Both the position numbers and the translations under genes were made by a program. Below the pieces are notes generated by a model. That model searched no databases and was not told the DNA's origin. It worked only from the letters and a program-made list of their open reading frames with translations. Below, in pieces: positions 3,410 to 32,690 of a DNA stretch of 32,690 bases. Positions within the stretch are counted from its first letter, which is position 1. Every line of letters begins with the position of its first letter. The stretch comes from a virus: the IMG/VR virus record IMGVR_UViG_3300050821_005168, positions 1-32,690 of that record, one strand, 5' to 3'.

Positions 3410-3431
3410 TGCGCGTATACGTCACCGATTG

Positions 3432-3701
3432 ATGCGCTGGACTCTCGCCCTAATTGCGCTGGCAGTGAGCATGTTTATAGCGACGTTCTTTGTACGCGCT
3501 TACGCGCAAGATGAAGAATCACCAATCGTTTCATGCGATAACAGCGACAGGCCCGACACAGCAACAAGGCTGCATAACTGTAAATGTGAAAGAACCACAG
3601 CCGAGTGCGATACGGACCGCGAAAAGGTCACAATGAGCAACAAATGCGGCAAGTATTGCGACGAAAAGGCTTGCGCCTGCGAAAACCATCAATGCAGCTA
3701 G
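3432..3701 (+). CDS. Secreted Cys-rich protein with Sec signal peptide, 89 aa
   Basis: Starting at ATG 3432 (a TTG lies one codon upstream), the product opens with a signal peptide. It has a basic N terminus, a hydrophobic core (TLALIALAVSMFIATFF) and a likely signal peptidase I site after AYA, leaving Gln as the first mature residue. The mature part of about 64 residues holds nine Cys, five in the last 18 residues (KCGKYCDEKACACENHQC), which resembles a metallothionein-like or disulfide-bonded peptide. It is predicted to act outside the cytoplasm. Function unknown; a host-envelope effector or accessory lysis factor are possibilities. Confidence 0.65.
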   Translation: MRWTLALIALAVSMFIATFFVRAYAQDEESPIVSCDNSDRPDTATRLHNCKCERTTAECDTDREKVTMSNKCGKYCDEKACACENHQCS

Positions 3702-14061: not shown

Positions 14062-14571
14062 GTGGCGACTAACGGAGAACTGAAGAAGTTCGACGCTACA
14101 CCCACTGGCCGCACTTCCGTTGTAAGGGGGGCGAAGTATGCGCGAGGCTTCGTCATCCGGCCCGAGCAGATACTTTCCCTCTTTCACGACACGCAACCCA
14201 ACCTTCCCCTGCCGGGAGATGCGCAATTCCAAGGTGTGGGGTTTGAGGATGCTGGCGTGGATAGCCAGATTCAATTCTTCTTTACCTCGCAGACGGCTCC
14301 GTGGGAACACTGCTTCGCCATGAAGCCGCAACTATTCTTCAACATCCTGGTTGATCTCGCGGATGGACTATTGCCGCTAGATTCCGAACTGGACGGTATC
14401 GAGATCAGCCATCGGTTTACGGTGCTTATGCTGCGCGTGAAGTCGTCTCATTGGCCTGCAGCACCAACCGACAATCTGCCGATCTATCACCTGCGTTACG
14501 ACTTAGGGAGACTGATACTTGTCGATCCATCGAAAGCTATTGAAGGCGATAGGCGCATTCGCATTAATTAG
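14062..14571 (+). CDS. Hypothetical head protein, 169 aa
   Basis: A GTG at 14062 starts a 169-residue globular alpha/beta protein with a Trp/Phe-rich core (IQFFFTSQTAPWEHCFAMKPQLFFNI). It ends with positively charged residues (GDRRIRIN). No family recognised. The next gene's TTG overlaps its 3' end by 53 nt, a larger overlap than the usual few bases here, which raises doubt about one of the two starts. Head completion or tail-adaptor function is possible from position. Confidence 0.6.
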   Translation: MATNGELKKFDATPTGRTSVVRGAKYARGFVIRPEQILSLFHDTQPNLPLPGDAQFQGVGFEDAGVDSQIQFFFTSQTAPWEHCFAMKPQLFFNILVDLADGLLPLDSELDGIEISHRFTVLMLRVKSSHWPAAPTDNLPIYHLRYDLGRLILVDPSKAIEGDRRIRIN

Positions 14572-16315
14572 CCTTCTGCCCGTTCTGGCGATGGCGCAAG
14601 GCAATACCTACCAGCCACAACTCATTACAGGTTCGGGCGCTCCAGGTACAGGGGCGGTTCAGAATTGCGCCATCTACCAGGAGTACACCGATACGGCCAC
14701 GGGCAATCATTGGTGGTGCAAGCCAGACAATAGCGGCCAGCATGGCTCATGGGTGATGGCTGGCAATCCCTCTTCCCTAAACAACTTCTTCTTCGTGGAC
14801 GGTGTGACATATACCACGATAGCTCAGGCGGCAGCAGCGGCTGATCCCGGTTTGGTGAACTGTAGTTTTACGACTAGCTGCGGGACGGTTGTGATCCCTC
14901 CGAAGTACGCAGGTACGGACAACTTCAATAATGCCGGTATCAATCTGCTGATCTTGGATTACCGCAGTAAGTTATTCAACGCACCCAGTATCAACGTGCC
15001 GACGTTCATCACGTCAATCGATAGCGACGCTACCTATCCGGCGGGCCGCGATATGAACTTCTTTCCCGGCGGACCGGCAGGATTGTACTTCAGACGCTCC
15101 ACAGTCGACACGACGACCACTGCTTCTCTGAGCGTTGGAGCAAACACAAATGTCTTAGTTGGTGCGGTCAACAATCACAACGTAGATTTGGGGAACGTCC
15201 AGACAGGTACTCTATCGACCCTGTTCTCCATTGGCACGGGTACAGCCCCACAGAAAATTTATGTGGGCCGCGAGACGGCGAATAACGAGCAGTTGACCTA
15301 CAGCGCGACCGTGAACTGTCCCATATCCGGGACCTGGAACATCGTGGACGGCACGCATCTTTGCCTGAACACGACGAAGACACACGCGGGAACGACCGAC
15401 ATCGAGCAGCCTCCGGACCCAGTTCGCTACGATTTTACCGATCTCCAGATTCGCGCTTACCAGTCTCGACCTTCACAGGATGCGAGTACTTGTCTTCCTA
15501 TGTTCGTGAACGACTTCAATGGCGTCAACCTGATGACGCTTCCAAGCGACTCGACATGCGCGGCTCCGAGGAATCAGCCTGCTTTTAACAGCGGGTTCAA
15601 CATCTATGTGGGTGGTGGAGTGCTCAGTGGCTCTCCGGTCTCTACATCTTGGGAATCGTTCACCCTTGGTGGTCCCAACTTCTCCATGAGCAATATCGAC
15701 CAGGGCGGGACAATTCGCGGCTTCGTCGGTCCCTTCTATGGTGGCACCGTAAACAACGGATCGTTTGGTGCGATCCGAATGCAAAATCAGACTTATCTTA
15801 CTCAAAGGAACGCTGCGAACAACGACGATAGCTGTATAAGCCTGGACGCCAATGACCAATGGTATTTGCAGACCAAGTGCAATGGCTCTGCCCCGCGCAT
15901 CAGCTTCTTCCCTGGCCTAAGCGGAACTGCGACGCTTGTTAATTGCAACACTTCGCAGAAATCAGAGTCCGCAGCGGATGTCAATGTGTTGACGTGTACA
16001 CCGCCCGCTGTGGCTGGAAGCTACCGAGTCCATCTGAATCTGTCTCTCTCGGCAGCGACCGCAGCCACGCTGGGATGGACAGCAACGTGGACAGACTCCA
16101 ACGGCACATCCCAAGCTCCAACAAATCTTCCCATCTGCATCAGTTCGGCGGGAACTTGCGCGGCAACGACGGGAGCGTTGAGCAGCACCGTAACCGCGTC
16201 GGGCGACTACTACATTGACGTGAACAATGCAGGAACGGCCATTGTGATTAAGCTTACCTTCAGCGGCACATCATTCACGGCCAAGGTCAGTGCGACGGTT
16301 GAGAAGCTGATCTGA
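14519..16315 (+). CDS. Exported fibre/spike-like protein with Sec signal peptide
   Basis: The 598-residue product starts with a textbook signal peptide: a basic N terminus (HRKLLK), a hydrophobic core and AMA before Gln 27. It continues with VDGVTYTTIAQAAAAA and VVIPPKYAG, as at the start of pectate-lyase-type phage spikes. A Ser/Gly/Asn-rich beta-strand region follows, then a C-terminal beta domain (residues about 470-598, LNLSLSAATAATL). Such proteins recognise or degrade surface polysaccharide. A signal peptide on a spike-like protein in the virion operon is unusual. The TTG start (14519) is needed to include the signal; no in-frame ATG precedes the hydrophobic core. Confidence 0.7.
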   Translation: MSIHRKLLKAIGAFALISLLPVLAMAQGNTYQPQLITGSGAPGTGAVQNCAIYQEYTDTATGNHWWCKPDNSGQHGSWVMAGNPSSLNNFFFVDGVTYTTIAQAAAAADPGLVNCSFTTSCGTVVIPPKYAGTDNFNNAGINLLILDYRSKLFNAPSINVPTFITSIDSDATYPAGRDMNFFPGGPAGLYFRRSTVDTTTTASLSVGANTNVLVGAVNNHNVDLGNVQTGTLSTLFSIGTGTAPQKIYVGRETANNEQLTYSATVNCPISGTWNIVDGTHLCLNTTKTHAGTTDIEQPPDPVRYDFTDLQIRAYQSRPSQDASTCLPMFVNDFNGVNLMTLPSDSTCAAPRNQPAFNSGFNIYVGGGVLSGSPVSTSWESFTLGGPNFSMSNIDQGGTIRGFVGPFYGGTVNNGSFGAIRMQNQTYLTQRNAANNDDSCISLDANDQWYLQTKCNGSAPRISFFPGLSGTATLVNCNTSQKSESAADVNVLTCTPPAVAGSYRVHLNLSLSAATAATLGWTATWTDSNGTSQAPTNLPICISSAGTCAATTGALSSTVTASGDYYIDVNNAGTAIVIKLTFSGTSFTAKVSATVEKLI

Positions 16316-16345: not shown

Positions 16346-18217
16346 ATGACCTGGAGAATTGACGCAAGCGAAGGCAACGAAACCGCAAAGGTCCACGACA
16401 GAATAGCGCCATTCGTCTACGGCCACGGAGTGGACTTGGGGTGCGGCTGCTGGAAGCTCAAGGTCGAAAAGAGCAGGGAGCATAGCTGTATTGGCGTAGA
16501 TATGGGGCTTTCCACGTTCGCGTGCAAAGAAGCCGACATGATAGCGGATGTGTCCAGCCTGCCTTTCAAGGATGAAGCCTTCGATTATGTCTATTCCTCG
16601 CACACGCTTGAGGACATGCACTACACCGAAGCGGTCCTTCTGGAGTGGTGGAGGATTCTCAAGCCCGGAGGCAGGTTAATACTCTATCTGCCGCTCACGC
16701 GCAAAGTGGCAAAAGCAATGGGTCGCGAGGATTGGGAGAACTTCTATCCCAACAAAGGCGAAGAGGGCGCAAATGTCTACCATGCAAGGGACTTCCATCC
16801 GCAAGAGATTCGAGATGCTATAGCTACAATCGGTGCTGCGGAGGTACTGGCCGATGAAATCAGAGGCGAAAAAGACGAATACAGTTTCCTGCTCGTATTC
16901 CGAAAGTGCGCATCTTCTGCAAGTCCTGTTAAGGGTATCGTTGCTGGAACTCCCGGAAAGCGAGCTTTGGTGGTTCGCTACGGAGCTATCGGCGATTTCA
17001 TACAAACTGTTCCAGTTCTTAAAAAACTCAAGGGAGAAGGCTATCACGTCACGGTCAACGGTTCGGAGACCGCTAAAGATGTCCTGAAGTACTGTCCCTA
17101 CGTGGATGAGATAGCCGTTCAGATCAAGGACTACGTTCCCAACAAGGGCGTGGTATCCGGTCCTCTGTTTGACTACTGGAAAGAACTCTCGACCAAGTAC
17201 GACAAGTTCATCAATCTCACCGGAGCGGCGGAAGAGACTCTACTTGTGCCTGATTCTCGCTTGATGCACATGATGGAGGGCGTTCGCACAAAGCATCCCG
17301 AACTGAACGAAGAGAGCGTCTTCTTCAACGCCATACGCGCCGTACAGCAGCAAGTAGGCGAGACCAATTACTACGACAACCACCTAGCGAAAGCGGGCTA
17401 TCCAGATCGCGGCATGAACGGGGAGCTATTCTTCAGTGAGCAAGAAGAGGTCATGGCCCAGGGTTTCCGAGACAAGTATCCTGGTCGGTTTGTGGTTATG
17501 TGGGTGCTTAGCGGCTCTAGCTATCACAAGCGTTACCCGTATTTTCAGCAGGTGGCGCAAGAGCTGGTCATAAAGAATCCCGATATTCTGCTGATTAGCG
17601 TAGGAGACCCGGAATGCGCACTTATCGAGAGGTCGGAGTCAAACAGATACTTACCTCGCGCAGGAAAATGGCAACTCCGAACAAGCTTAGTAATGACTAA
17701 ATACGTAGACTGCGTGATTGGTCCAGAAACGGGCATTCTAAACGCGGCAGGTTGTTTCTCGACTCCCAAAATCACTATGCTATCGCACTCAAGCCACGAG
17801 AATCTTTGTAAGTACTGGGCCAATGACTTCTGCATTGCGCCTGACCCGAAAGAGGTCTTTTGCCATCCCTGCCACGTGCTGCACTACATTCACTCGGTAA
17901 ACTCAGAGTGCCCGACGTGCAAAGGCAGTACGCACACCTTTCAGAATAGCAATGGGCCTGCCGGGGTAGGAACTGTTTGGACTTGCCCCTATGAGATTCC
18001 TAACTCCATGAAGGACGCAACGGGACTGGGACCGCCCTCGCCGCTGTGCACTACCCGGCTCTATCCCCAGAAGGTGCTCGCACGCATAAACGAGGTTTAT
18101 CGTTTGTGGCTCTCTGGACAGCACCGGCACCCGCAACCGCTAGTTACCATAGGGCAGCCTAATTCCGTGAAGCATTCGGCTTTGTTACGCGAAACAACGC
18201 AGGCGGTGGCGGGGTGA
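16346..18217 (+). CDS. Fusion of SAM methyltransferase and GT9-type glycosyltransferase
   Basis: A 623-residue protein with two enzyme domains. Residues about 20-190 form a class I methyltransferase: VDLGCG (29-34) is the SAM loop, and FDYVYSSHTLEDM and WRILKPGGRL match the type 11 family. Residues about 204-480 resemble glycosyltransferase family 9 (heptosyltransferase-like): ALVVRYGAIGDFIQTVPVL at the start and CVIGPETGILNAAGC (456-470) as the donor-site signature. A C-terminal Cys/His cluster (FCHPCHVLH, ECPTC) may bind zinc. It could add and methylate a sugar on the host surface or on virion proteins. It sits among structural genes. ATG 16346 is preceded by a weak GAGCGTGGTGAG. Confidence 0.8.
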   Translation: MTWRIDASEGNETAKVHDRIAPFVYGHGVDLGCGCWKLKVEKSREHSCIGVDMGLSTFACKEADMIADVSSLPFKDEAFDYVYSSHTLEDMHYTEAVLLEWWRILKPGGRLILYLPLTRKVAKAMGREDWENFYPNKGEEGANVYHARDFHPQEIRDAIATIGAAEVLADEIRGEKDEYSFLLVFRKCASSASPVKGIVAGTPGKRALVVRYGAIGDFIQTVPVLKKLKGEGYHVTVNGSETAKDVLKYCPYVDEIAVQIKDYVPNKGVVSGPLFDYWKELSTKYDKFINLTGAAEETLLVPDSRLMHMMEGVRTKHPELNEESVFFNAIRAVQQQVGETNYYDNHLAKAGYPDRGMNGELFFSEQEEVMAQGFRDKYPGRFVVMWVLSGSSYHKRYPYFQQVAQELVIKNPDILLISVGDPECALIERSESNRYLPRAGKWQLRTSLVMTKYVDCVIGPETGILNAAGCFSTPKITMLSHSSHENLCKYWANDFCIAPDPKEVFCHPCHVLHYIHSVNSECPTCKGSTHTFQNSNGPAGVGTVWTCPYEIPNSMKDATGLGPPSPLCTTRLYPQKVLARINEVYRLWLSGQHRHPQPLVTIGQPNSVKHSALLRETTQAVAG

Positions 18218-19158
18218 GCGAATCCCTTAACCTAGGAGCAATCCGTTCTCAAGCCCAGATATACTTGCTTAACACCTCGACCGACCTTAATTCGCTGTCT
18301 TGGTCTACGAGTGAGCTTAACGGCTACATAAACGAGGCCACGTTGTACACACAGCAGCTCACGAATTGGTACGAGGACTTTGACACTCTGGTTTGTACAG
18401 CATCAGTGTCGACCTACACCGCCCCGCCTACAGTGCATCAATTCCTAAGACTTACATGGGATAGGGTATTTTTGCCGCAGACCAACGAATACGAACTAGA
18501 TAGAGACGATCCTAGCTGGCGAGCCGCACCAAATAACAATCCATTTCGCTTCTACTTCCCGCAGTTCGGCCAGCAAGCGGCTATCTCACCCTATCCCGTT
18601 CCTTCGCAAAACGGCACCACTTACACATCAACTCCAGAAACCGGAGCCGTCACTGCGCTTACGCTCGATGACGGAACGGCAATCACGTTCAATCAGGAGA
18701 CCGGAGTAGTCATTCAGGTAACGGATAGCAGCGAGACCTTGCTAGGATTCCGATCCGACCGCCTAAACAATCCCTTCCCCAGTCAGGAGTTTGGCGAGAT
18801 TGCCATGTTCACGAGCGACAAGCTCAATATCGGCATGGCCTTTGTACGCTTGCCGGATACGCTCGTTCTTGATACGGATACACCACAACTCCCGATTCAA
18901 TGTCATCTCGGGCTTGTGTTCTATACGCTGATGAAATGTTTCGCGCGAGAAGGCGAGTTTCAGGATTTGGACGTTGCGCAAGGCTGGTTTCAGGCATACG
19001 GCGATTGGATGGAATCGGTCTTAGAGAATAAGGCCAGGTGGTGGGCGACTCGCGTCAAGTCGCTTGAGCCATACGAAGAGGGAAGCCTTTTCGCGCAAAG
19101 ACTTAATGCTATCGGCTACCCGATGCAACTTGATTTGAAGCCGAGTTACGGAACGTGA
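18214..19158 (+). CDS. Head-tail adaptor protein, SU10-like, copy 1
   Basis: GTG 18214 overlaps the previous TGA. The 314-residue product opens with the helical pattern LGAIRSQAQIYLLNTSTD, then LSWSTSELNGYINEATLY, typical of SU10-type adaptor proteins that join portal to tail. A beta-rich domain (DRDDPSWRA, FYFPQFGQQ) and a helical C terminus (FQDLDVAQGWFQAYGDWMES) follow. The gene at 19523 shares the opening and the YPVP/VPVP strand style, so the two are probably paralogous adaptors. A receiver-domain gene lies between them. Confidence 0.7.
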   Translation: MSESLNLGAIRSQAQIYLLNTSTDLNSLSWSTSELNGYINEATLYTQQLTNWYEDFDTLVCTASVSTYTAPPTVHQFLRLTWDRVFLPQTNEYELDRDDPSWRAAPNNNPFRFYFPQFGQQAAISPYPVPSQNGTTYTSTPETGAVTALTLDDGTAITFNQETGVVIQVTDSSETLLGFRSDRLNNPFPSQEFGEIAMFTSDKLNIGMAFVRLPDTLVLDTDTPQLPIQCHLGLVFYTLMKCFAREGEFQDLDVAQGWFQAYGDWMESVLENKARWWATRVKSLEPYEEGSLFAQRLNAIGYPMQLDLKPSYGT

Positions 19159-19526
19159 AGAAGCTACTTCTAGTAGATGATGAATTGCACCGCGCCCAAT
19201 CAATCAAGAGTGTCATGCCATCAGAGATAACGGCTATCTGGGCGCAAAATGCGGGCCTCGGTATTCAGGCATTGCGGGCCGAGAAATTTGACATTCTCTT
19301 ACTGGATCACGACCTTTACCACGAATCCGGTAGCGGTGAAGATGTCGCCAAGGTTGTAGCCGAGACCCAAAATCCAACCTGCAAAATATTCATCCACTCC
19401 CAGAACGAAGCTGGTGCCAATGCAATGCGTCAGCTGTTATCGGGATTCGAGATTTCGCGATCCGCGTGGGATAACGGGCAACGCATGGCCCCCGGACTCC
19501 CGGAGTGGCTTAAGGCTCAGGCGTGA
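19155..19526 (+). CDS. Cyclic-phosphate-processing receiver (cREC)-like protein
   Basis: GTG 19155 overlaps the preceding TGA; its stop overlaps the next GTG. The 123-residue product has a receiver-like alpha/beta fold: LLLVDDE at the start (Asp 8-9), DILLLDHDLY (Asp 51, His 52, Asp 53) and IFIHSQNEAGANAM (His 81, Ser 82, Asn 84). A DHD instead of a lone phosphoacceptor Asp, with the HSxN motif, is the set described for the cREC family, proposed to process cyclic phosphate ends of nucleic acids, rather than a two-component receiver. A phage role in repair or evading host RNA/DNA damage is inferred. Between two adaptors it is out of place. Confidence 0.65.
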   Translation: MKKLLLVDDELHRAQSIKSVMPSEITAIWAQNAGLGIQALRAEKFDILLLDHDLYHESGSGEDVAKVVAETQNPTCKIFIHSQNEAGANAMRQLLSGFEISRSAWDNGQRMAPGLPEWLKAQA

Positions 19527-20236
19527 GCGTACAGAACTATAGCCTTTCAGGTTTGCGCACCATCGTTAAGACCAAACTGAATGAGCTAACCAACGATGGC
19601 CTGTGGACTACTCCTGAGCTAAACACCTACATCAATCACGCCATTCTGCGCGTGGTTCTCGATACGCGCATCCTGCAAACCGATGAATCGGTGCCCCTGC
19701 TTCAGAATCTCGCGCTCTACCGGATGCCGAGCGACATGCTCACGCCACTGTGGATTTATGGGCCTTCGTTGTGGGGCAGCCTTAGACTCTTTCCTTCGTT
19801 CCTGCTTTCGCTCGATAAGCAATATGGCGGGATGTACCAGTGGGAGAAGGACAGCACTAATCAGTCGCAGGGCTTCGTCCCATTCTCCTACGATCAGTTT
19901 ATTCTCTGGCCGCCGCCTTCCGCGAATACCAACGTAACGCTACATCACGTGCCGGTGCCGACCACGCTGGTAAATGATAGCGACACCACTGCGCTTCCCC
20001 TCTTTGCTCAGCGAGCCGTAGCCACATTCGCCTCTTATCTGGCGATGATGAAGGCGGACATCCAGAAGGCTCAGAAGTGTTTGGCCGAATATAAGCAGCG
20101 AATCGTTTCGGTTCTGGAGATCACGCGGCATCAGGATCAGACTAGACCGTCGCAGATGATTCCTGGCAGAGGCTTTGATAGATCAATGGCCAATCCGTCG
20201 ATTCGCGCGTATAGGAACAGCCGCCGTTACTACTGA
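19523..20236 (+). CDS. Head-tail adaptor protein, SU10-like, copy 2
   Basis: GTG 19523 overlaps the previous TGA by 4 nt. The 237-residue product starts with the same pattern as the adaptor at 18214 (SGLRTIVKTKLNELTNDG, then LWTTPELNTYINHA), followed by a beta-rich middle with Trp/Pro (FSYDQFILWPPPSANT) and a helical C terminus (ADIQKAQKCLAEYKQRI). Shorter than copy 1, it lacks the internal insert at residues about 120-180 of that protein. It probably forms the next ring in the head-tail junction. Its stop overlaps the next ATG. Confidence 0.7.
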   Translation: MSVQNYSLSGLRTIVKTKLNELTNDGLWTTPELNTYINHAILRVVLDTRILQTDESVPLLQNLALYRMPSDMLTPLWIYGPSLWGSLRLFPSFLLSLDKQYGGMYQWEKDSTNQSQGFVPFSYDQFILWPPPSANTNVTLHHVPVPTTLVNDSDTTALPLFAQRAVATFASYLAMMKADIQKAQKCLAEYKQRIVSVLEITRHQDQTRPSQMIPGRGFDRSMANPSIRAYRNSRRYY

Positions 20237-21012
20237 TGGTCTTGGCCTACGTTTTGCGACATGGAGTCACAGATTTAAGTCCCAAGCATGAAGGGCAAAC
20301 CCAGATTCCCATGAACGAGTTCGGCAAGTCGCAGATACGCGACGCCGCCAACTACATCAAAGATCAGCTCAAATCCAAGCCGGGATGGGGCGTTTCCTCC
20401 GACCTGAAAAGGGCAGAGCAAGCCCTTTCAATATCGGCGGAAGTCTTAGGTCTGAGAACCGTGCGGCCCATGCCTGACTTGCGCAATCTGGGCGACGATG
20501 AAACTTCGGTGCAATTCGAGAGGCGGCTAACCAAGGCATTCTCCGCCATCCTGGACACGCGCAAAAAGATCAAAAGCATTCCCATTATAGCGACGCACCG
20601 CTCGGTGAGCGCCTGGGTCTGCAAGCAATACGGGTACGTCGAGCAGGAGATGGATTACACCAGGGCAAGCGTAGTCTGGGAGGGCGGGATAGTCGTCATT
20701 GATTCTGATGGTGCGCGACCAATCTATAAGCCGCTAGTACAGAACACCGCAGAAGATTTACAGCCCTTCGACGGCACACACATCTCAGGTTTCGTAACCG
20801 CAGAAGATAACCAGCCACCGCGACAATGCGATAACTGTAAGTGGTGGGCCAGGGATTCATCTTGCCACCATCAGGTGGTAACGGCAGACGATGAACCAGG
20901 AATACTTTACGGAAAGAAACGAAACAAAGAAGGCTATTGGATCATGGGTCCGCGCGATTGTTGCAATAACATGCAGAACAAATTTTTGCCAGCTCCAACG
21001 GCATTGCACTAG
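20236..21012 (+). CDS. Histidine phosphatase superfamily protein with Cys-rich tail
   Basis: ATG 20236 shares one base with the previous TGA. The 258-residue product has the catalytic set of the histidine phosphatase (phosphoglycerate-mutase-like) superfamily: LRHG with His 9, Arg 8 and Arg 59 (SSDLKRAEQ), and IATHRS with His 121. Thus the enzyme should form a phospho-histidine and hydrolyse a phosphomonoester. After residue about 195 a tail follows with CDNC (197-200), CHH (209) and DCCNN (241-242), probably a zinc or Fe-S site, unusual for the family. The substrate is unknown; a role with the GT9 protein in sugar phosphate chemistry is one inference. Confidence 0.8.
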   Translation: MVLAYVLRHGVTDLSPKHEGQTQIPMNEFGKSQIRDAANYIKDQLKSKPGWGVSSDLKRAEQALSISAEVLGLRTVRPMPDLRNLGDDETSVQFERRLTKAFSAILDTRKKIKSIPIIATHRSVSAWVCKQYGYVEQEMDYTRASVVWEGGIVVIDSDGARPIYKPLVQNTAEDLQPFDGTHISGFVTAEDNQPPRQCDNCKWWARDSSCHHQVVTADDEPGILYGKKRNKEGYWIMGPRDCCNNMQNKFLPAPTALH

Positions 21013-21702: not shown

Positions 21703-22112
21703 GCGATTCCGTCAGCTTCGATCTTGGCTCCGTGGTTGTGGTTACGCCGCATAGCGTCGCGTGCATGGTGGAGTGCTACTGCTTGGGAAGTGGCTCAACG
21801 GTCAAGGGCTTTCCGCTTAAAGAGGCGGCGGTAGTTGATTCGGTCTCGGGAACGCTCAGCTTCTATGGTTTGAACTGGTCGTGGTTGAAGCGTCTCTGGA
21901 ATGGCAACACGGCCATCTGTGGAACCATCAATTCTGGCGACGATCCGCTAATCGCATTTGACATACAGGGCAGGGGGGCGGCGCCGCAGATTATTCCCGT
22001 TTACGCGACATTCTCAAAGTTGCGCCTAGAAACACTGCGGTTTGATCTGTACCCAGACTTGAATCTACCTACCGACTTCCGAGTAGCGCTGGCGTTTCAT
22101 CGAGTTGAATGA
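21699..22112 (+). CDS. Small beta-rich fibre-associated protein, 137 aa
   Basis: TTG 21699 overlaps the previous TGA. The 137-residue product is beta-rich with Ser/Gly and aromatic residues (SGTLSFYGLNWSWLKRLWNG) and a C-terminal FRVALAFHRVE. No family recognised. Coupled translation with the fibre-like gene points to a tail-tip component or fibre chaperone. Its 3' end overlaps by 16 nt the end of the minus-strand gene below, so the two transcripts converge. Confidence 0.6.
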   Translation: MSDSVSFDLGSVVVVTPHSVACMVECYCLGSGSTVKGFPLKEAAVVDSVSGTLSFYGLNWSWLKRLWNGNTAICGTINSGDDPLIAFDIQGRGAAPQIIPVYATFSKLRLETLRFDLYPDLNLPTDFRVALAFHRVE

Positions 22113-22465
22113 GGGTTACGTTCTCCAAGATCACAGTGGCAGCGAAGGTGTTCAAGTTCGTGGGCAATAACTTCTCGCAGGTGCAGGGGATCGGCGAAGG
22201 CTTTTGGTCCAAGCCAGATTCTATTTGCTGACCAATCGGTCAGCGCAGTTTCAGATGGGCGTAGGCCATTCTTCACCATCACGCTTTCCCAGTCGGAAGA
22301 ATTGCAGATGACGTACAGCTCAAACTCCGGGGCCTTACCCTGTTCCGAAAATACTTTAATGGCATCCGTAGCACTCGCCGAACAGCTTCCCACGACGTGG
22401 GTATGTGTTGGGACCTGCGCATGAGCTGGAATGACGCACAGCAGAAATAGTGGCAAGTATTTCAT
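22097..22465 (-). CDS. Exported HExxH putative metallopeptidase (moron)
   Basis: A minus-strand gene inside the + strand late block. The 122-residue product starts MKYLPLFLLCVIPAHAQ, a Sec signal peptide cut after AHA, leaving Gln. The mature domain has two Cys early (SCSAS, VICNS) and HELEH at residues 102-106, with a further His 110, so it carries a zincin motif near its C terminus. Signal plus HExxH suggest a periplasmic zinc peptidase or amidase-like enzyme; the fold is not certain. AGGAGC is only one base from the ATG. The convergent 3' overlap with the preceding gene is typical of inserted moron genes. Confidence 0.65.
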   Translation of the reverse strand: MKYLPLFLLCVIPAHAQVPTHTHVVGSCSASATDAIKVFSEQGKAPEFELYVICNSSDWESVMVKNGLRPSETALTDWSANRIWLGPKAFADPLHLREVIAHELEHLRCHCDLGERNPHSTR

Positions 22466-28562: not shown

Positions 28563-28853
28563 TCATATGTTCTCACACTTCTTTTCAGTCTTGTCTTTCT
28601 GTTTGGCCTCATCCCTTGTCTGCCACTGCATATTGCCTGGAGAGTCTGTACCACCACATTCCAATGGCTTTATATGGTCGATTACATAACCAGGCTTACC
28701 GTGAGGGTATCCAGTTATACGCATGAACTCGCGTCGAGCTGTTGAACTGCGCTTAATCCTACCGCGTGAGTCGCGCACGCAGGTATCGCAACGCTTCTGT
28801 GCGAACGCAGGGATGCAGGCCAGCGCCAAGGTCAATAGGGCGGCGCGTCTCAT
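28563..28853 (-). CDS. Exported HNH endonuclease (moron)
   Basis: A second minus-strand gene in the + strand late block. From ATG 28853 (an upstream TTG at 28871 is possible) the 96-residue product begins MRRAALLTLALACIPAFAQ, a Sec signal cut before Gln 19. The mature protein has CDTC (22-25), then the HNH core: VIDHIKPL with Asp 59 and His 60, CGG, Asn 74 in GNMQWQT, and KD at 86-87. This matches the small exported HNH nucleases with a DH...NMQWQT signature. In the periplasm it could cut incoming phage DNA (superinfection exclusion) or scavenge DNA. It has its own promoter (28860-28887). Confidence 0.8.
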   Translation of the reverse strand: MRRAALLTLALACIPAFAQKRCDTCVRDSRGRIKRSSTARREFMRITGYPHGKPGYVIDHIKPLECGGTDSPGNMQWQTRDEAKQKDKTEKKCENI

Positions 28854-28859
28854 GGCCCA

Positions 28860-28887
28860 ATCGTATTCCAAGGTTTGATTCAGTCAA
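28860..28887 (-). promoter_or_regulatory. Sigma70-like promoter for the minus-strand HNH gene
   Basis: Read on the minus strand, TTGACT (28882-28887) and TACGAT (28860-28865) are separated by 16 nt and match TTGACA and TATAAT at 5/6 and 4/6 positions. The -10 box ends only 6 nt before the ATG at 28853, so initiation would fall at or next to the start codon and give a leaderless or nearly leaderless mRNA. This agrees with the lack of a ribosome binding site there. Confidence 0.5.
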
Positions 28888-28916: not shown

Positions 28917-30194
28917 ATGAAACTAGCCCTACTGGTACTGGTGTGCGTGTTTGCGGCGCTTCCAGGGCTTGCGCAAAACACAGGCTTGCCTAATGACGCG
29001 CCCCCGTTACCTTCAAACCTCTATACGACGCCAAGCTATATTGGCACAAGCGGCTCCGGACTTCCCGCTGGCGGGGGCACAACTCCCGCCAATCGTGCGC
29101 AGGTCGTTACCGAAACTCCTAACGGCACTACTCAAGGCACGGGGGCATGGGCCTTGCCGGGTGATTCGCCCACGGATCGTGGAAGCGGTGAAGCCTCGTA
29201 CACGATAGCGGTTACCGACATCGGCACTTCGATACGCGAAACGAACGTGAATGGCGAGGCCTTCACCATCCCGGACGGTAATACGAACGGCTTCGTGCTG
29301 CCGGTGAATATTGGCTTCATCATCGAGGGTGGGACTTCGACCATCACACGCACGACCTCGTCGCAGTTTCGCTGCACGCCCAACGGTCCATTGGCGAATA
29401 CGTGCACTCTTAACCCCGGCGCTCAGTACATTCTGAAAGAGACCAGCGACTTCAATTACACGCTGAGCGTGGCTGGCGACACGAATCCAAGTCCTCAAGA
29501 CGACAAGATTTGGTCTTACTCGACAGAGTTCGGAACAGTTGCTTTTTCCACGAATCTTTATGGCTTCTCCGCCCCTTGGCAATGCAGTGGGGGCACCAAT
29601 GGAACGGTGGCGATCTCTAACGGGTCGTGGCCTTACTTTGCGTATCTCCAAATGACCAGTTCAGCCACGGCATCGTCATTCGCCCAGTGCGCATTCCCTC
29701 AAGTTAGCACCAACGCCAATCCTCACGCTCTTTATGGAAGCAATACGGGTTGGGATTTTACTTGGGTCGCAGCTCTAGCTCAGACGACGAATACGCGGGC
29801 CTATTTTGGGCTGTTCTCGGCAAACGCAGCGGTCCGTCCTACCGATGGAATGTGGATTCGTTACGACACGAATGCCACGTTCAACGATACAAAGTTTACA
29901 TTTGAGACCTGCAAGGCGAGTGCGTGCACGATCATCGCCCAACTAAACGTAGACACGAACTTTCACCGATTCGAGATCAAGAGCACAGTCGTCGGAACAA
30001 TCGACTTCTTCATCGACAACGCCAACCATGGCTGCTTCAACTCCGGGGGCACTGGCGGTTGCACAGCTTCAGCCAATATCCCAACTGTCGCCGAACTACC
30101 TACTGTAGTGGCTGGCAACGATACGACCGCATCTGCTTCGCTTGTTAATTTTAACCGCGCCGCGGGAACCATTACGGGGCTGGCGCGACCGTGA
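28917..30194 (+). CDS. Exported fibre-like protein with Sec signal peptide
   Basis: I use ATG 28917, preceded by GCGAAAGGC, because an upstream in-frame start lacks a ribosome binding site. The 425-residue product starts MKLALLVLVCVFAALPGLAQ, a signal peptide cut after GLA, leaving Gln. The mature part is Thr/Ser/Asn/Gly-rich and beta-strand-like: a low-complexity N-terminal segment, a domain at about 75-190 (YTIAVTDIGTSIRETN) and a lectin-like sandwich at about 200-400 with aromatic positions (WDFTWVAALAQT, FHRFEIKSTV). It resembles phage fibre or carbohydrate-binding proteins, but is predicted to be exported. The next gene overlaps its stop. Confidence 0.65.
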   Translation: MKLALLVLVCVFAALPGLAQNTGLPNDAPPLPSNLYTTPSYIGTSGSGLPAGGGTTPANRAQVVTETPNGTTQGTGAWALPGDSPTDRGSGEASYTIAVTDIGTSIRETNVNGEAFTIPDGNTNGFVLPVNIGFIIEGGTSTITRTTSSQFRCTPNGPLANTCTLNPGAQYILKETSDFNYTLSVAGDTNPSPQDDKIWSYSTEFGTVAFSTNLYGFSAPWQCSGGTNGTVAISNGSWPYFAYLQMTSSATASSFAQCAFPQVSTNANPHALYGSNTGWDFTWVAALAQTTNTRAYFGLFSANAAVRPTDGMWIRYDTNATFNDTKFTFETCKASACTIIAQLNVDTNFHRFEIKSTVVGTIDFFIDNANHGCFNSGGTGGCTASANIPTVAELPTVVAGNDTTASASLVNFNRAAGTITGLARP

Positions 30195-32503
30195 GAACGC
30201 TATCCTGGCTCGCCGTCGAAATCTTCTGGATTGCGGCGATTATTTTCATATTTGTGCTACCTGGGCGTTCTCAGGTTACGGTCGGCGTGCCCCTGTTTGA
30301 GCCGCCGACGCAGGGAACGGACTACAACCCCACGCCGGGAGCGAGTTCCTACACAGGGACGGGCGGAATCGTTCTCAACATCCTGACCGGCACGCCGCCG
30401 TTTTCGTGCGCGGTCACGAGCGGGGCGATTCCAACCAGCATGACACTCGATGAAGTGACGCCCACTTCGACGCCTGCCGGCGGATGCCGCATCAAGGGAA
30501 CGCCTACCGTAGCAGGAGATTTCGTGTTCACGCTGCAGGTCACGGACGCGAACTCGAATACGGCAAGCCAGAGCGTGACGGTTCCGGTGAATACGAGCAG
30601 CCCGGCTACCTACTCCGCGCAGACCTGCGGCAGTCCCGGAGTGAGTACGGCGACATGTACTTGGACTACAAGCGTGGCTACGACAACGCAGCTCTGCGGC
30701 AGTATGGATAACACGTTCCCGAAGGGAGTTCCGGGATCGTCTGGGCCTGCGAGTTTCTGTACTACAGAAACCGATTTAACTGGTGTCACATCCCATTCGG
30801 TTAGCCTCTCTGGGTTGGCAGAAAACGCTAAATATTATGTTTACTTTATAGGTCGAGGGATCAGCGCGGGCTCCCCGCAGGATTATTTGTTTTCATTCAA
30901 TGAGCCTTCATGTGCTGGCAATCCCGGATGTGGCTCATCCTTTTTCACGACAGCCGTAGCATCGAATGCCGGAACGGCAGACTTTAGCTTGCAGATGTAT
31001 GGTGCCCACAACATTATTCAGGGATTCCCGCTTTATGTGGCGATTCACCCGTGGCCCCTTGTTGGAGTCACGGACATCACGGGGCACAATGTCGTCTTCC
31101 AGGTCACGGGACTGCCTACTAACTCGCAGGTCCATTGGCCCGACCAGCAGGATGACGGCTGCGCTTGCGGCACTGTCAGCACCACGACCACGACCAACGA
31201 CACGTTCACGCTCGTCGGGGGCGTGAGCATCGTCAACAACGAGCAATTCGAGATTCTGACCAACGTGGGCGGCACAACCCCCGTGGGAAGTTCGACCCTT
31301 ACGTTGACCGTGACGGTTGGAGCGACGCCGACCATTCACACCTTCAACTGGACGCTAAATGTGGCTGCGCCTTCGTTTACGTTCGGGAGCCCCTCAAGCT
31401 ATCCAGCAATCCCTTCTTTATCGACGTGGACAAGTAATCAGTCCATTGGAAATCTAGATTGGGCGACTCCGGGTGGATCGCAAGGCATTTGCTCGATGGG
31501 TTTTACTAATGTTGGTTTCTATGACGGTGCTTGGGCCTTCTACCAAGGGGGAATCTGGAACGGTCAATCTATCCCGTGGGCTCAAGATGCCAGAGTTTGT
31601 AGTCAGAATTATCAGAACACAGAAGTCAATGTGATTGGAAGCGACACGAACTGGCAGAGTTTTGCGATCTTTGTTCACCCACATGGCCAGTATTATGAAT
31701 GTAAGCAGTATGGAATTCCTCTTTCTTGCAATGGTGTAGCCGCACTCCCTGCATGCTGCGGCGGTTCAATGATATCTAACAGCACCCCATACGCTAGTGC
31801 CGATTACGCCCGTGAATCAGCATTCATGCTGAGCGCCAAGCGGCTCGACTACGACAACGGAGGGGCTACCACGCTCGCCAAAGTAAAGACGATGGCGGCT
31901 TATGTTCTCGGCAACATTGATCAGTACGTCAACGAAGATACGACCATTCTAAATGAGACGTTCATGCACGGACTCTTGGGGCAGGCGGCTATCGAGTTTT
32001 ACGCCGATCCGAACACTGGCAACGGCGATGTGCGCGTTCCTCAGGCAGTCTGTGGTATGGCGGATCATCTCTGGAGTACCTGGTTCGTCCCGTGGAACGG
32101 AGCCGCTGGAGGTTTTCCTTATGAGCATGACACTTGGGCAAGTACCAAAAGCGCAGGATGGAAAAGTGTTCCTGCCTTCGGCGCCGGTGGAAGCGCCCTT
32201 GAAGATTTGAATAACTTAATCGCTCCAGTATTTGCGTGGTGCTTCTCGATAACGGGACAGCAAAAGTACCAACAGGAGTTCGATACGCTCTTTAATTCCA
32301 GCAATCTTGAGCCTCTAAACATAGGCGAAGGGGCGGTGGGGAAGACTTGGACTCAAAATTATCGCTGGACATATTTAGGGCTACTGTGGCGCGGCGCGAC
32401 TGCCCCTTCGGGCGCTGGAATTGGCTGCTTTCAACTGCCGCAAACAGGAACATGCCCGAGAGTGCAACTGCCCGTTCCGGCAGTGGGGAGTCCAACGCTA
32501 TGA
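30191..32503 (+). CDS. Exported multi-domain protein: Ig/FN3-like domains plus helical enzyme-like C terminus
   Basis: GTG 30191 overlaps the previous TGA. The 770-residue product has an N-terminal hydrophobic signal (LAVEIFWIAAIIFIFVLPGRS, then Gln). An Ig-like domain of the He_PIG kind follows at about 45-133 (CRIKGTPTVAGDFVFTLQVT), then a FN3-like domain (about 140-235) and another Ig-like domain (about 270-400). The C-terminal half (about 400-750) has alpha-hairpin-like segments (YARESAFMLSAKRLDYDNGG, LLGQAAIEFYADPN) and aromatic/acidic clusters (WFVPWNGAAGG, PYEHDTWAS). This suggests an alpha/alpha-toroid polysaccharide-active enzyme; catalytic residues are not identified. Confidence 0.65.
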   Translation: MRTLSWLAVEIFWIAAIIFIFVLPGRSQVTVGVPLFEPPTQGTDYNPTPGASSYTGTGGIVLNILTGTPPFSCAVTSGAIPTSMTLDEVTPTSTPAGGCRIKGTPTVAGDFVFTLQVTDANSNTASQSVTVPVNTSSPATYSAQTCGSPGVSTATCTWTTSVATTTQLCGSMDNTFPKGVPGSSGPASFCTTETDLTGVTSHSVSLSGLAENAKYYVYFIGRGISAGSPQDYLFSFNEPSCAGNPGCGSSFFTTAVASNAGTADFSLQMYGAHNIIQGFPLYVAIHPWPLVGVTDITGHNVVFQVTGLPTNSQVHWPDQQDDGCACGTVSTTTTTNDTFTLVGGVSIVNNEQFEILTNVGGTTPVGSSTLTLTVTVGATPTIHTFNWTLNVAAPSFTFGSPSSYPAIPSLSTWTSNQSIGNLDWATPGGSQGICSMGFTNVGFYDGAWAFYQGGIWNGQSIPWAQDARVCSQNYQNTEVNVIGSDTNWQSFAIFVHPHGQYYECKQYGIPLSCNGVAALPACCGGSMISNSTPYASADYARESAFMLSAKRLDYDNGGATTLAKVKTMAAYVLGNIDQYVNEDTTILNETFMHGLLGQAAIEFYADPNTGNGDVRVPQAVCGMADHLWSTWFVPWNGAAGGFPYEHDTWASTKSAGWKSVPAFGAGGSALEDLNNLIAPVFAWCFSITGQQKYQQEFDTLFNSSNLEPLNIGEGAVGKTWTQNYRWTYLGLLWRGATAPSGAGIGCFQLPQTGTCPRVQLPVPAVGSPTL

Positions 32504-32690
32504 AACGAGCATTTACGCTGTTGCCGCTGATCCTCGCGCTGCCGTTTCTCGCGCACGCGCAAGCGGGTGCAGGCTATACCAAGCTCGCCTCCACCAACGG
32601 CCTCTCGCAGATCGATACCTCCGTAACCGATGGTGCGGTCTACGAATATCAGATCACGTCGTTTTGCGCACAGCCTGTGGCGCCAGCGAC
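32500..32690 (+). CDS. Partial exported protein, N terminus only
   Basis: ATG 32500 overlaps the previous TGA (ATGA). The visible 63 codons begin MKRAFTLLPLILALPFLAHAQ, a Sec signal peptide cut after AHA to leave Gln, followed by the start of a beta-rich region (GAVYEYQITSFCAQPVAPA) that could be a fibronectin-like domain. The gene runs off the window, so its size and function cannot be judged. It continues the run of exported proteins. Confidence 0.7.
   Translation, partial: MKRAFTLLPLILALPFLAHAQAGAGYTKLASTNGLSQIDTSVTDGAVYEYQITSFCAQPVAPA

Follow-up and report, generated by a model that had tools for sequence, protein, structure and literature searches.

We regard it as probable, if well short of assured, that a small minus-strand gene in the viral DNA analysed here (the window, a record of 32,690 bases taken at its full length) encodes a Sec-exported, disulfide-stabilized ββα-metal DNase, and that this gene is cargo of a soil podovirus, which took it over from a family of envelope or extracellular nucleases in bacteria. 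We refer to the gene and its relatives as mini-HNH.

A short gene for an exported HNH-type protein

The open reading frame begins at the ATG at 28853, which was chosen over a TTG further upstream at 28871, and ends with the stop codon at 28563-28565; its 96-residue product, MRRAALLTLALACIPAFAQKRCDTCVRDSRGRIKRSSTARREFMRITGYPHGKPGYVIDHIKPLECGGTDSPGNMQWQTRDEAKQKDKTEKKCENI, combines a signal peptide with a ββα-metal (HNH) core. An earlier note on this DNA had pointed to a small minus-strand gene for an exported HNH-type protein, and that observation is real and confirmed. Relatives across viral and genome stretches, described below, show that the frame is not a chance one, and a pN of 0.19 against a pS of 0.80 relative to an acidobacterial copy (L023) argues for a coding gene under constraint. 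The gene and its parts are as follows.

28563..28853, minus: mini-HNH gene, from the open reading frame and family relatives
28860..28887, minus: promoter-like TTGACT-16-TACGAT, a 9/12 match ending 6 bases before the ATG
28800..28853, minus: signal peptide, residues 1-18, MRRAALLTLALACIPAFA, with a predicted cut before Q19, from the sequence and the relatives' N-termini
28779..28790, minus: N-terminal CxxC (Cys22, Cys25), seen in a minority of relatives
28584..28691, minus: HNH core, residues 55-90, from conservation, the ββα model and the structural alignment to colicin E9
28674-28679, minus: D59/H60, invariant or nearly so among relatives
28656..28658, minus: Cys66, half of cysteine pair B, covarying with the C-terminal Cys
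28632-28634, minus: N74, invariant or nearly so among relatives
28593-28595, minus: D87, invariant, pairing with colicin E9 residue 131
28584-28586, minus: E90, nearly invariant among relatives
28575..28577, minus: Cys93, the other half of cysteine pair B, from its covariation with Cys66

A promoter of the gene's own, which the earlier note had assumed, finds no backing in this one site: shuffled sequences average 0.7 such sites, so that it does not rise above chance, and it would yield a leaderless mRNA. No terminator was found in a search around the gene. Besides mini-HNH, the record holds a podovirus-like late head-tail module, with PHROG matches to terminase, portal, major head protein and connector-type genes.

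A family shared between bacteria and viruses

Searches with tblastn and profiles returned 20 close viral relatives, and a search with the alignment widened the family to 193 viral and 269 genome stretches, the latter from Acidobacteriota, Bacteroidota, Gemmatimonadota, Proteobacteria and others. Judged from these sequences, the family is large, widespread and largely bacterial. The Pfam HNH family PF01844 gives the window protein 14.0 bits (E 0.057) and does not reach its curated cut-off of 21.4; 39 of 76 relatives match it at E up to 0.01. The best PHROG, phrog_4590, whose function is not known, covers residues 18-84 at an E of only 1e-4, and neither NCBIfam nor a plain PDB sequence search yields anything at threshold for the window protein. 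Presence in Acidobacteriota is patchy, with matches in 14 of 199 genomes at E 1e-3 and strong ones in 5 of the 199. A single phage record among 50,697 matches (MW202512, annotated 'hnhc'), as does a single plasmid record, NZ_MG869627 (Polaromonas), at a spot where no gene is annotated.

Genes in acidobacterial genome contigs are the closest relatives of the window protein, which makes an acidobacterium the probable phage host. In the family tree, which was built on a short alignment and has weak branches, the labels 'viral' and 'genome' require 19 changes, at least 4 of them forced by supported branches, and thus exchange between viruses and genomes was repeated. In Methylophilaceae, the orthologs (L078, L080, L081, L085, L087, L094) occupy a conserved chromosomal block, a designation that is firm for this block only, as MAG contigs may hide unrecognized prophages. 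There mini-HNH forms a fixed single-gene island on the strand opposite to its neighbours, with a FemAB-like gene on one flank and a ROK-kinase or transporter gene on the other. The mature parts differ by a dN of about 0.08 and a dS of about 1.5, which shows strong purifying selection, in bacteria that are streamlined (one ortholog sits in a 1.3-Mb genome). With its conserved block and the purifying selection, this is a bacterial gene that serves a purpose of its own. The island would be a good experimental entry point.

How does this distribution agree with the role proposed in the earlier note, namely that an infected or lysogenic cell makes a periplasmic DNase which degrades the DNA of superinfecting phages during its passage through the envelope? 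An export signal and an HNH core are present, the gene is patchily distributed, and in viral contigs at large it most often adjoins repressor and late-activator families, as would fit a lysogeny-linked cargo. However, the family is largely bacterial and has a conserved chromosomal locus in Methylophilaceae, the PADLOC defence library has no match to the window protein, our literature search found no paper on such a role, and neither a repressor nor an integrase could be identified in the 32,690-base window. Moreover, tailed phages generally eject their DNA through a protein channel, in which it is shielded from the periplasm. A superinfection block is therefore an improbable role for mini-HNH. 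At a distance of five to six genes from mini-HNH in viral contigs, primase and replication families lead.

An HNH fold with an altered active site

The AlphaFold model (76 aligned sequences, with one row, from a phage record, left out of the alignment) is a ββα finger with a core pLDDT of about 97, in which strands are predicted at residues 56-60 and 75-79 and a helix at residues 80-89. A hairpin and helix, with a His as general base and an Asn, place the protein in the ββα-metal (HNH or His-Me finger) superfamily. Its best match in both structural and profile comparisons is the HNH domain of Cas8f from the type I-F HNH CRISPR-Cascade (PDB 8w1p, 9siu), with a profile E of 1.6e-7 and, as the best solved structure in Foldseek, an E of 3e-3; against the PDB, Foldseek gave no match at E 0.001 or better. 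VIA-align with 9siu_A yields Z 7.7 and an rmsd of 2.4 over 70 residues, in a comparison that covers a list of structures and leaves room for families off that list. The Cas8f-HNH site consists of His304, Asn318 and His327, the third ligand standing nine residues after the Asn (PMC11459484), and the domain cuts DNA with Mg or Mn (PMC11480323). Mini-HNH shares its His-to-Asn spacing of 14 (PMC11459484), but has Ala, Gly or Ser in place of His327, and whereas Cas8f-HNH is part of a cytoplasmic RNA-guided complex, mini-HNH is exported alone.

The core of the window protein reads GYVIDHIKPLECGGTDSPGNMQWQT. The earlier note had called it complete, which goes too far: D59, H60 and N74 are retained, but the third catalytic His or Asn of the canonical three-residue HNH motif is missing, as the N+9 position is Ala83 in the window and A, G or S in 110, 31 and 13 of the 154 relatives, respectively. 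All 154 relatives retain the D, H and N, which belonged to the motif used for their selection, and ten more loci outside the search motif likewise keep them. At positions outside the selection motif, to which N+9 also belongs, K86 and D87 (N+13) are invariant and E90 is nearly so in the 154 relatives. Because metal ligands vary within the superfamily, the lost N+9 ligand marks a variant of it and not an exclusion from it.

A candidate for the missing ligand emerges from the colicin E7 and E9 DNases, which have the same ββα-metal fold. D59 stands just before the general base, as do colicin H544 and H102 (PMC10386286, PMC2816704). The structural alignment to colicin E9 (2gzf_B) ends with model residue 87 paired with residue 131 (His131), and the alignments to ColE7, ending at 90/576 (1m08_A) and 89/575 (3fbd_A), are consistent with 87 lying on 573; in ColE7, H573 binds the metal together with H544 and H569 (PMC10386286). 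Thus D59 and D87 are likely metal ligands, going by aligned ranges and not by coordinates.

Since the canonical helix ligand is absent, activity may have been lost or changed. In the extreme, mini-HNH would be a non-catalytic or much altered HNH-fold protein, a binder of DNA or of another ligand in the envelope that has lost efficient cleavage. The A, G or S at N+9 in 154/154 relatives, with K86, D87 and E90 nearby instead, would be in line with this, but D59, H60 and N74 are unchanged in very distant relatives, including loci outside the motif, and D87 falls on a known metal-ligand position (PMC10386286), so that we consider such a protein unlikely. The fold is also common to the Rhs2-CT, pyocin and colicin DNase toxins, which would allow mini-HNH to act as an antibacterial toxin secreted against competitors or sibling cells, on its own or as part of a pair. 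Colicins, however, have His ligands including one at N+9 (H569/H127), receptor and import domains, and immunity proteins, and mini-HNH differs in all of these: it has no import domain, no immunity gene adjoins it (it lies between a virion-type gene and one with a signal peptide), and the small, stand-alone exported form prevails across the whole family. A toxin is, accordingly, distinctly improbable.

Export and paired cysteines

By inspection, a positive n-region, a hydrophobic core and an AxA-type site can be recognized in the N-terminus of the window protein, MRRAALLTLALACIPAFA|Q. Signal-peptide-like N-termini, called by inspection and a simple hydrophobicity rule, occur in 146 of 154 distinct relatives when the best start is taken, and contig ends cut some of the exceptions. 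A few relatives carry a lipobox (e.g. L049, L102, L162, L171), and some bear, by eye, other extracytoplasmic-looking segments, among them DUF4124-like ones and GGxY...KxYV repeats.

The cysteines add to this. The pair PC...GxC is present in full in 87 sequences, absent from 63 and halved in 4, and pair B (CGG...C-terminal Cys) is present in 81, absent from 70 and halved in 3, while the two pairs vary independently of one another (53/39/34/28), as judged by counts alone, the tree having too few supported branches for a p-value. A four-cysteine zinc site was considered and rejected on this independence. Covariation within but not between the pairs indicates two separate disulfides and hence, as far as sequence can tell, points to an oxidizing compartment for the mini-HNH proteins. 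The window protein contains the second of these pairs (C66, C93) plus the N-terminal CxxC; with its signal-peptide-like N-terminus and covarying cysteines it bears the export signal of a secreted nuclease. The earlier note's view of the protein as exported thus stands, and the two contrary findings it had named, loss of the catalytic His or Asn and a cytoplasmic location in relatives, were looked for and not found.

Phages commonly carry HNH genes, which serve as homing or packaging nucleases. Were mini-HNH one of these, its hydrophobic N-terminus would not be a signal peptide; yet such N-termini recur in 146/154 relatives, some with lipoboxes, the cysteine pairs covary, no terminase gene is a neighbour and the 96 residues include no DNA-recognition domain. 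We regard this origin as very improbable indeed.

Cargo at a variable junction

A capsid-protein search retrieved sister phages 87-94% identical in this protein. The full mini-HNH gene is absent from all 13 sister records, one short weak match not being this gene. In the three sisters that cover the junction (G209, G211 and G216; capsid protein 91-94% identical), the last virion-type gene and the one after it overlap by 4 bp, where the window has 435 bases including mini-HNH between the flanking genes; the sisters have another downstream gene than the window, and the comparison of the empty site is thus not base-exact. The presence of an additional gene that close relatives lack at this position supports variable cargo at a variable junction, a 'moron', as the earlier note had suggested.

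The following window genes bear on the surroundings of mini-HNH.

14519-16315, plus: gene with a signal-peptide-like start, from the sequence
22097..22465, minus: exported HExxH gene, with a weak SprT-like match below cut-off, 6 kb from mini-HNH
28917..30194, plus: signal-peptide gene adjoining mini-HNH, N-terminus conserved in G216
30191..32503, plus: large gene of the exported run with a signal-peptide-like N-terminus, from the sequence
32500-32690, plus: start of a gene of the exported run, signal-peptide-like, from the sequence

The earlier note had seen in the HExxH gene a mirror image of mini-HNH. It does exist on the minus strand, exported and 6 kb away, but it is not a conserved partner. 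In its slot, G209 has a 111-residue exported HEAAH protein, also on the minus strand and 30% identical, and G211 and G216 have no such gene. Across the viral contigs, phage records and loci compared, the only other relatives are in L173 and L174, which represent the same or a near phage; one of 75% identity (G006/L174) is located elsewhere. A search for the pair in other contigs found G209, with an HExxH gene and no mini-HNH, and no HExxH gene near mini-HNH in any other HNH-bearing locus within the DNA compared. The two as a unit were therefore rejected: their presence differs among sister phages, and the HExxH gene belongs to the same phage as mini-HNH with a different history.

The four plus-strand genes listed have signal-peptide-like starts, mostly ending in AxA-Q, and corresponding signal-peptide genes are found in G216 (28145/30069), G211 (12149/16504), G209 (8362/9064) and G006 (15093); one N-terminus including its signal peptide is 50% identical between the window and G216 over 60 residues. 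The run comes behind the final virion-type gene, a position in which one would expect tail fibres or spikes, and in G209 it is followed by a lysozyme-like gene. Large exported proteins in this position are unexpected. Further observations concern other plus-strand genes. A methyltransferase fused to a weakly heptosyltransferase-like part (16346-18217) lies inside the virion gene cluster and is 72-91% identical in sister phages. The tail-gene cluster includes a small receiver-domain protein (19155-19526; PF20274, cyclic-phosphate processing receiver, E 7.7e-15) and a histidine-phosphatase protein (20236-21012; PF00300), the latter present in G209 and G207 and not found in G211 and G216. A small protein at 3429-3701 combines a signal peptide with a Cys-rich mature part and has no Pfam match.

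Physiological role

What can be said about the function of such a protein? Secreted HNHc-type nucleases, catalogued by domain name only, have been reported from activated sludge and, like mini-HNH, are exported and come from diverse taxa; in some phyla, Acidobacteriota included, several secreted nucleases are encoded in the MAGs (PMC11495043). NucB of Bacillus (PMC5758888) is likewise a small secreted ββα nuclease with a stabilizing disulfide, but it uses a Glu instead of a His as general base and belongs to a different sequence family. What we infer for mini-HNH, from its catalysis and metal to its compartment in this phage and its biological role, would combine as follows. The signal peptide would take the protein through Sec, and it would fold outside the cytoplasm, where the Cys66-Cys93 disulfide could form. 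His60 would activate a water molecule, with Asn74 orienting His60, and Asp59 and Asp87 would hold a divalent metal, Asp87 replacing the missing third His or Asn. The enzyme would then nick or digest free DNA in the periplasm or outside the cell, whether this is eDNA, comes from lysed neighbours or is on its way into the envelope.

As the family is kept outside phages, has no defence association and is exported, the most parsimonious role is an action on free DNA, and the benefit is more likely to lie in clearing DNA or salvaging nucleotides, for host and phage alike, than in a dedicated block against superinfecting phages. In a broader scenario, which we think has a slim chance of being right, this HNH subfamily, with its swapped metal ligand and exchangeable disulfides, would form a general DNA barrier in the envelope that limits the entry of phage or transforming DNA, encoded in chromosomes and repeatedly borrowed by phages.

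Mini-HNH thus represents a compact exported nuclease family, found in several phyla of bacteria as well as in their viruses, for which none of Pfam, NCBIfam, PHROGs and PADLOC has a name at threshold, and it offers a testable altered active site together with a clear cysteine-pair signature for its compartment. An action on incoming DNA would make it a simple barrier at the envelope; with free DNA as its substrate, it would be an enzyme of salvage or clearance, widely shared and passed around by phages.
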